Assembly (NCBI GenBank): GCA_002840245.1
Contig: PHAA01000011.1
Span: forward strand, 1 to 64,000
Direction of reading: 5' to 3'
From: Firmicutes bacterium HGW-Firmicutes-15
GTDB taxonomy: Bacteria; Bacillota; Syntrophomonadia; Syntrophomonadales; Syntrophomonadaceae
DNA length: 64,000 nucleotides
The position numbers were made by a program, and so were the translations under genes. The notes beneath the pieces were generated by a model. The model searched no databases, had not been told where the DNA came from, and saw only the letters and a list, made by a program, of their open reading frames with translations. How positions within the stretch are numbered: the stretch's first letter is position 1; the number at the start of each line of letters is the position of its first letter. Positions 28,259-58,003 of this stretch are shown one piece after another.

Positions 28259-28280
28259 TATTAATGGTGCATTATTCAAA

Positions 28281-29177
28281 GATACTGCGCAGCAAGCTGG
28301 TGAAGCACTGAGAGATAAGGATACCAGGTGTTAGATGTTGACTGTTATCTGGGGCTAACAGATTCAGTAATTCTGCTTGCTCCCATCAGCTACGGTGTGG
28401 GGACACACCTCTAGGGAGGAATGTCCCCGTATGTGCTCGTTCTACCAGCTGCTTGCCGGGAGAGCTCCAGGGGCACCCTGTCAAATCTCCCATCCTTGGT
28501 CGATGACAGGCTCACCCTGCGGGTACTCCCAATGCTCCCTTTGGTCGCGGAGTAAGGTTGCGCGACGTCCTGTCGCTCGTCCCCTTACGCTATCCCGTCT
28601 TCGCAGGGTAGAACGGCCTCCTCCGCTAGGTCGCCAGCATAATTACTAAATCTGTCGCGCTATAAAATCTACAAAAATCTTGCTGGAAAGGGACGGAGAT
28701 GCTGGTGTTCCCACTTACCCTGTTTTATAATAGTGCCTTAAAAGAAAACTATATTAGCAAAGAAGTTCAGATGCACAGGACAAATTTAGCAATTGTGCAG
28801 GCGACGTTGCGCAGGAGGCCGTGCTGTCCTGTGAAGACAGATGAGTGGAGGAGGGCGAGGAACAGGACGTTCCGCAACCTTAATTCGCGACCAAAGGGAG
28901 CATTGGGAGTACCCGTAGGGTGAGCCGGGCACCGCCCATGGATGGGCGGTTGGCCGGGTACCCTCAGGAACTCATTTGGCAAGCAGTTGACAGCCTGAGC
29001 ACATACGGGGACATTCCTCGTTGGAGGTGTGTCCCCACACCTTAGCTGCCTGGAGCTGGCAGAATTGCTGAATTTGTCTACCCAGCTTCGGTCAACAGCA
29101 CAAACCCGTTCTCCCGTTTATCGTTGTAGGGGAATGTCATCAGATTATTTGCTGCTGCGCATTATCAGTCAACTGCG
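28281..29177. mobile_element. Large inverted-repeat element (two ~274-bp arms, ~166-bp centre), apparently non-coding
   Basis: Arms 28361-28634 and 28801-29074; 28388-28438 vs 28997-29047 and 28509-28573 vs 28862-28926 match about 92%; ends shared with 57857-57980. Confidence 0.75.
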
Positions 29178-29256
29178 AAGTTGAGTTGTTTACATCCGTT
29201 CCTTTTTAATCGAGCTCAGGATATAATTAGAAAAAAATGGTGAGGAGCTCAATTGG

Positions 29257-57802: not shown

Positions 57803-57856
57803 TTGCCCAAAACTTGGGTAGCATAATAATAAGAAATTCAAGTTTCGCAGTTTAGG

Positions 57857-57980
57857 GATACTGCGACATAAGAGTTGTCATTCTGAACGAAGTGAAGAAT
57901 CTTCCCCACGCTTAGGGGAAAGATCCTTCGCTGATCCTCAGGATGACATAAAACTTACTGCGCATAATCAGTCAACTGCG
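57857..57980. repeat. MITE-like palindromic element
   Basis: tgtcattctgaacgaagtgaagaatctt...aagatccttcgctgatcctcaggatgaca (57876-57948) inside ends gatactgcg / ctgcgcataatcagtcaactgcg. Confidence 0.8.
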
Positions 57981-58003
57981 TAATTTAAATATGGAGAAGA
58001 AAA

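Follow-up and report, generated by a model that had tools for sequence, protein, structure and literature searches.

A nested palindrome with IS4-type ends between spoIIR and ispE in a Syntrophomonadaceae genome: a probable MITE-like, oversize transposable element

Introduction

Insertion sequences of the ISPepr1 subgroup of the IS4 family have the end consensus YT-AA-YTT---A and generate direct repeats of 7-8 bp, with an A+T-rich preference (PMC2266710). Prokaryotic MITEs, QMITE2 of Coxiella and Chunjie of Geobacter among them, are non-coding, multi-copy, intergenic elements of variable size that are bounded by terminal inverted repeats (TIRs), flanked by target site duplications (TSDs) and have strong hairpin potential; they are A+T-rich and typically shorter than 500 bp (PMC10969869). 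Two further systems bear on what follows: REP and REPIN hairpins with their RAYT (Y1) transposases (PMC3116915), and the correction of quasipalindromes by template switching (PMC7202029).

Here we discuss an element between spoIIR and ispE of Firmicutes bacterium HGW-Firmicutes-15. It lies within a 64,000-nucleotide stretch of contig PHAA01000011.1, which we call the window, and occupies positions 28275..29185 (911 bp, no strand assigned; limits from copy alignment and TIR positions). The listed features of MITEs recur in it, the TSDs being seen in its relatives. It departs from them in that almost all of it is palindromic, with further palindromes nested inside, and in that its G+C content exceeds that of its flanks (53% vs 45%). 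It also exceeds the usual MITE size, as do its full-length sister copies (738-811 bp), and is for that reason called MITE-like and oversize rather than a standard MITE. No published description of it was found in the open-access literature. As we argue below, it is very probably an old, non-autonomous transposable element with IS4-family ends near the ISPepr1 subgroup.

Geometry and Limits of the Palindrome

The inverted pairing of the arms is genuine and greatly exceeds what chance would give. The left arm (28358..28656, forward strand, left-type sequence) and the right arm (28779..29077, reverse strand, right-type sequence), both delimited by inverted match and arm alignment, agree at 235 of 299 positions without a gap; the same geometry tried at 1223 other places in the window gave 102/299 at best. 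A preliminary description, made from the sequence of the stretch, had recognized the inverted pairing correctly but had given the arms only 274 bp, over which a recount finds 214/274 identities. Its two most similar blocks were reproduced as given (28388-28438 against 28997-29047, 47/51; 28509-28573 against 28862-28926, 60/65). The limits it proposed, 28281 and 29177, have been moved outward to about 28275 and 29185, since the common ends of the aligned copies run beyond them. It had seen no recognizable protein inside, and the open reading frames tested within the element likewise matched no Pfam family. As RNA, a 942-nt segment folds at -551 kcal/mol against -321 +/- 10 for shuffled sequences (z = -22.7), a stability that any long palindrome yields by itself.

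Copies and Empty Sites

Sequence searches of the host genome and its relatives, from which all copies discussed here derive, gave two further host copies of full length, on C49 (L031, 747 bp) and C72 (L032, 811 bp), and two shorter ones, on C49 (L033, about 320 bp) and C26 (L034, about 437 bp). The congeners G006 and G001 hold further relatives. Other copies, which the preliminary description had proposed to look for, thus exist in the host and in two congeners, at unrelated loci. The empty orthologous spacers that it had also suggested seeking were found: in three congeners (G001, G002, and G005) the spoIIR-ispE spacer is clean and lacks the element. In G006 this spacer holds other repeat sequence and a run of about 100 N, so that absence there is not complete proof. 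A search with joined flanks showed that the L034 site is empty in G001; this search was informative at few sites, owing to the divergence of the congeners and to the other repeats present in their corresponding spacers. What we describe is mobile DNA rather than a family of RNAs.

Terminal Inverted Repeats and Target Duplication

The family TIR is CTCAACTTTCGCAGTTGAC, followed within the genus by TGATTATGCGCAGCA. In the window copy both TIRs are altered. Comparison with the intact TIRs of sister copies shows that the left TIR (28275..28294, forward strand) is truncated: it retains TTCAA, has lost about 14-16 bp, and continues with the inner part GATACTGCGCAGCA. The right TIR (29153..29185, reverse strand), read inward, is CTCAACTTCGCAGTTGACTGATAATGCGCAGCA and lacks one T by comparison of the copies. 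Elements bounded by the CTCAACTTTCGCAGTTGAC TIR, both in the host and in other Syntrophomonadaceae, range from 67 to 811 bp and differ greatly in their interiors; a GTDB scan found the exact 19-mer in 26 stretches, mostly from this bacterial family. Many TIRs in the relatives have no clear partner.

Target duplication was assessed by comparing the flanks of 24 TIR pairs with 5000 permutations of partners. Selection of the pairs was automatic, and a small number of them may be spurious; this would weaken the signal but not create it. At a length of 7 bp, mean flank identity is 0.60 against 0.43 after permutation, a value reached in 0/5000 permutations (P < 1/5000), and five pairs have exact 7-bp matches where 0.29 are expected. 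Among these 24 pairs the excess is weak at length 6 and absent at lengths 4, 5, 8, 9, and 10. One of the five exact cases is a 751-bp palindromic sister in G006 (L083), with a 7/7 duplication, ACAGTTA. A 5-bp TSD read by eye was dropped in favor of 7 bp after the length scan and once the true end was seen to be CTCAAC, not ACTCAAC.

TIRs and target duplication hold for the family and are decayed in the window copy, at which no clear TSD is seen (4/7 by eye). With most of the left TIR gone (about 14-16 bp) and the TSD unrecognizable, the window copy is probably old and now immobile.

Other elements with this TIR were also observed. A second one in the window (57837-57989, 153 bp) has decayed copies of the CTCAACTTTCGCAGTTGAC TIR, 15/19 at both ends, and its interior is a GTCATTCTGAACG...GGATGACA palindrome. 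Several genomes (L150-L175; STD2_213, STCSWMC_114, and others) contain many CTCAACTTTCGCAGTTGAC-bounded elements; inside, these consist of a mosaic of GTCATTGCGAGCGCAGCG-type repeats, some arranged as nested palindromes.

IS4-Type Ends and a Candidate Transposase

The family TIR agrees with the ISPepr1 end consensus, to which the terminal CTCAACTTTCGCA of the element can be fitted, and the 7-bp A+T-rich duplication of the family falls within the published 7-8 bp (PMC2266710). Unlike an IS4 element, the one described here carries no transposase gene and has an unrelated interior; its likeness to ISPepr1 is set by ends and duplication. The absence of IS4 similarity from the interior speaks against an IS4 origin, and common descent would have to be read from the ends.

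A search for the partner transposase through PF01609 returned mostly insertion sequences with other ends. It also led to a degraded IS4 gene beside a TIR in G079, and from there to genes matching NCBIfam NF049925 (IS4 family). One of these lies in the host itself (C11:192-1586): an open frame of 465 aa with an NF049925 score of 547 bits and the right end ACTCAAACTTCGCAG. A DDE transposase of the partner family is therefore present in the same genome as the element. It is the sole open IS4 gene of the host, and its ends are similar, not identical, to those of the element, which also counts against the IS4 reading. NF049925 genes in G025 and G036 have the ends ACTCAACTTTCGTAG.

G018 contains many IS4 pieces, with left ends CTCAAGTTTCGCA and right ends CTCAAATTTCGCAG. 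Two 283-bp internal-deletion derivatives there keep a remnant of the transposase and have exact 7-bp TSDs, TTATTTA and TTTATTA; they tie this type of TIR to the 7-bp duplication through IS4 sequence itself. In a derivative in G011, the 5' part of an IS4 adjoins such an end. Altogether 21 IS4 transposase pieces were seen in G018 (L241-L269), several of them at contig ends. As far as can be read from the sequences, the IS4 family of G018 is caught forming MITEs.

Arms and Nested Palindromes

In L031, L032, L082, and L083 the entire element is palindromic, and each half holds a further palindrome of about 210-230 bp. Among the aligned copies, left arms are 82-92% identical to one another and right arms 77-92%, whereas left and right arms share 63-72%. 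Divergence between the arms therefore predates the spread of the family, and the element travelled as one unit. Origin of the arms by tandem duplication of one palindrome was rejected, direct left-right similarity being lower than inverted similarity in the copies examined.

Each arm has an internal hairpin, defined by arm alignment: CCTGTCA...TGACAGG on the left (28477..28511, forward strand) and CCGG..CCGCCCAT..ATGGGCGG..CCGG on the right (28924..28960, reverse strand). This division holds throughout the family, each version keeping to its own side, with the apparently converted right arm of L032 as the exception. The two versions differ by two compensatory pair types, in which both sides have changed. 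The earlier suggestion of conserved structure under drifting sequence thus holds only to a limited degree, through these pairs, and the change is not arbitrary drift; it separates a left-type from a right-type version. The two pairs are a weak indication of kept structure, equally expected of extruding DNA and of RNA.

The short host copies bear on the later history of the palindrome. L033 resembles a window-type element that has lost the DNA between its two REP-like hairpins, and L034 resembles one with a deletion across its center. Deletions across the center are typical of palindromes.

Mirror-Symmetric Modules and Their Copying

Two modules, located by copy alignment, occupy mirror positions in the arms of the window copy. 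Module 1, a REP-like GGGGACA...TGTCCCC hairpin of 40 bp, lies at 28395..28434 (forward strand) and 29001..29040 (reverse strand), with 37/40 identical positions. Module 2, a dispersed repeat of 48 bp, lies at 28513..28560 (forward strand) and 28875..28922 (reverse strand), with 45/48. Both modules are in both arms of the window copy and in 0/4 of the other aligned full-length copies. Left-right identity is 92.5% and 93.8% in the modules against 65.5% in the backbone (Fisher P = 5e-8). The simplest reading of modules that are about 93% alike in a backbone 66% alike, mirror-placed and confined to the window copy, would be copying from arm to arm, through template switching or gene conversion. 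The process would resemble quasipalindrome correction, in which the arms of an imperfect palindrome are made similar (PMC7202029); that work concerns mutations in short quasipalindromes, whereas the tracts suggested here are modules of 40-48 bp and a run of about 23 alignment columns, in arms of about 300 bp.

The two arms of an IS4-type element might instead have received the modules in separate insertion events at an identical target, which we consider somewhat unlikely. Dispersed copies of module 2, and of relatives of module 1, exist in the genome, so that repeated insertion of each is conceivable, and both arms offer the same target, CTCCGGAG, in sister copies. Yet both modules are doubled, in mirror positions and mirror orientation and with the same asymmetric details, and among the loci fetched no outside copy is as close to them as they are to each other (at most 35/40 for module 1 and 42/48 for module 2). 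The right arm of L032, moreover, independently carries a left-type tract, a run of five arm-diagnostic positions over about 23 alignment columns. Arm-to-arm copying could be given a wider sense, in which the element stands for a class of self-correcting palindromes that copy modules gained in one arm to the other and so grow symmetrically. This generalization is distinctly unlikely on present indications; the extruded hairpin or cruciform may also serve the spread of such an element.

Elsewhere, a different composite repeat (L047, L048, and L049; G000:C64 and C43) combines modules 1 and 2 at a distance of about 110-150 bp, arranged otherwise than in the window element. A tandem array of at least five GGGGACA hairpins with a period of about 39 bp is found at L095 622-819 (G030:C1).

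Repeat-Array and RNA Readings of the Whole Element

The preliminary description had offered, as candidates for the whole, a non-autonomous element, for example of the REP/Y1-transposase kind or otherwise derived from an insertion sequence, and a large structured RNA or DNA element. The general form of the first agrees with the dispersed copies, the TIRs, the 7-bp duplications of relatives, the empty sites and the lack of protein. Its REP form, an array of REPs or BIMEs (REPINs) moved by a Y1 (RAYT) transposase with the hairpins paired inverted, is very improbable, even though the GGGGACA hairpins are similar to REPs and are also found singly at other places, RAYT genes are present in the genome and unpartnered TIRs are common in the relatives. 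Module 1 is REP-like in the sense of PMC3116915, but the ends and target duplication of the element are IS4-like. The hairpin is absent from 4/5 full-length copies, and the two inspected RAYT loci, L051 and L052, have another inverted repeat at their borders, one with a GGGACG core; on this ground a RAYT origin of the whole element was rejected. A 7-bp target duplication is, in addition, not expected of Y1 transposition. The GGGGACA hairpin is a REP-like passenger module. More improbable still is a large structured or regulatory RNA or DNA element kept for a function between spoIIR and ispE. Its very stable fold and the two compensatory pair types of the internal hairpin would suit such a role; against it stand the three congeners with the same spacer and no element, and the copies at unrelated loci. 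The compensatory changes follow the split between left and right arms and represent one old event each, and covariation beyond the palindrome itself is slight. An Rfam covariance-model search gave nothing significant (a single chance match of 26 bits, the gathering score being 139.7), and neither promoter nor terminator in the element exceeds chance.

The two RAYT (Y1_Tnp) genes lie at L051 1391-2269 and L052 1015-1949 (G000:C11 and C65), each with the GGGACG-core inverted repeat. No such repeat pair was seen around a third Y1 match, a fragment at a contig end. Orthologous spacers of G001 contain gene-less elements of about 260 bp with similar GGGGACGGTTCTTTTGCC ends.

A Model for the Element and Its Significance

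For an IS4-derived element, the following course can be proposed. A candidate IS4-type transposase of the C11:192-1586 kind would act in trans, bind the CTCAACTTTCGCAG ends, mobilize the element and insert it into A+T-rich intergenic DNA, where 7 bp of the target would be duplicated. Inside, the element is a palindrome, and each of its ancestral halves would have enclosed another one of about 210-230 bp; the element would have spread through the genus with left and right arms already distinct. It may then have grown by gaining REP-like hairpin modules that were afterwards copied between the inverted arms, probably by template switching or gene conversion, while other copies (L033 and L034) would have shrunk through deletions across the center.

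The analysis adds to the mobile elements of Syntrophomonadaceae an undescribed family with IS4-type ends. It also shows in what way the spacers of these bacteria fill up with nested palindromes. The diagnostic left- and right-arm positions form a natural record in which sequence seems to have been copied from one inverted arm to the other, across tens of bp in arms of about 300 bp; such copying has otherwise been studied mostly in short quasipalindromes.
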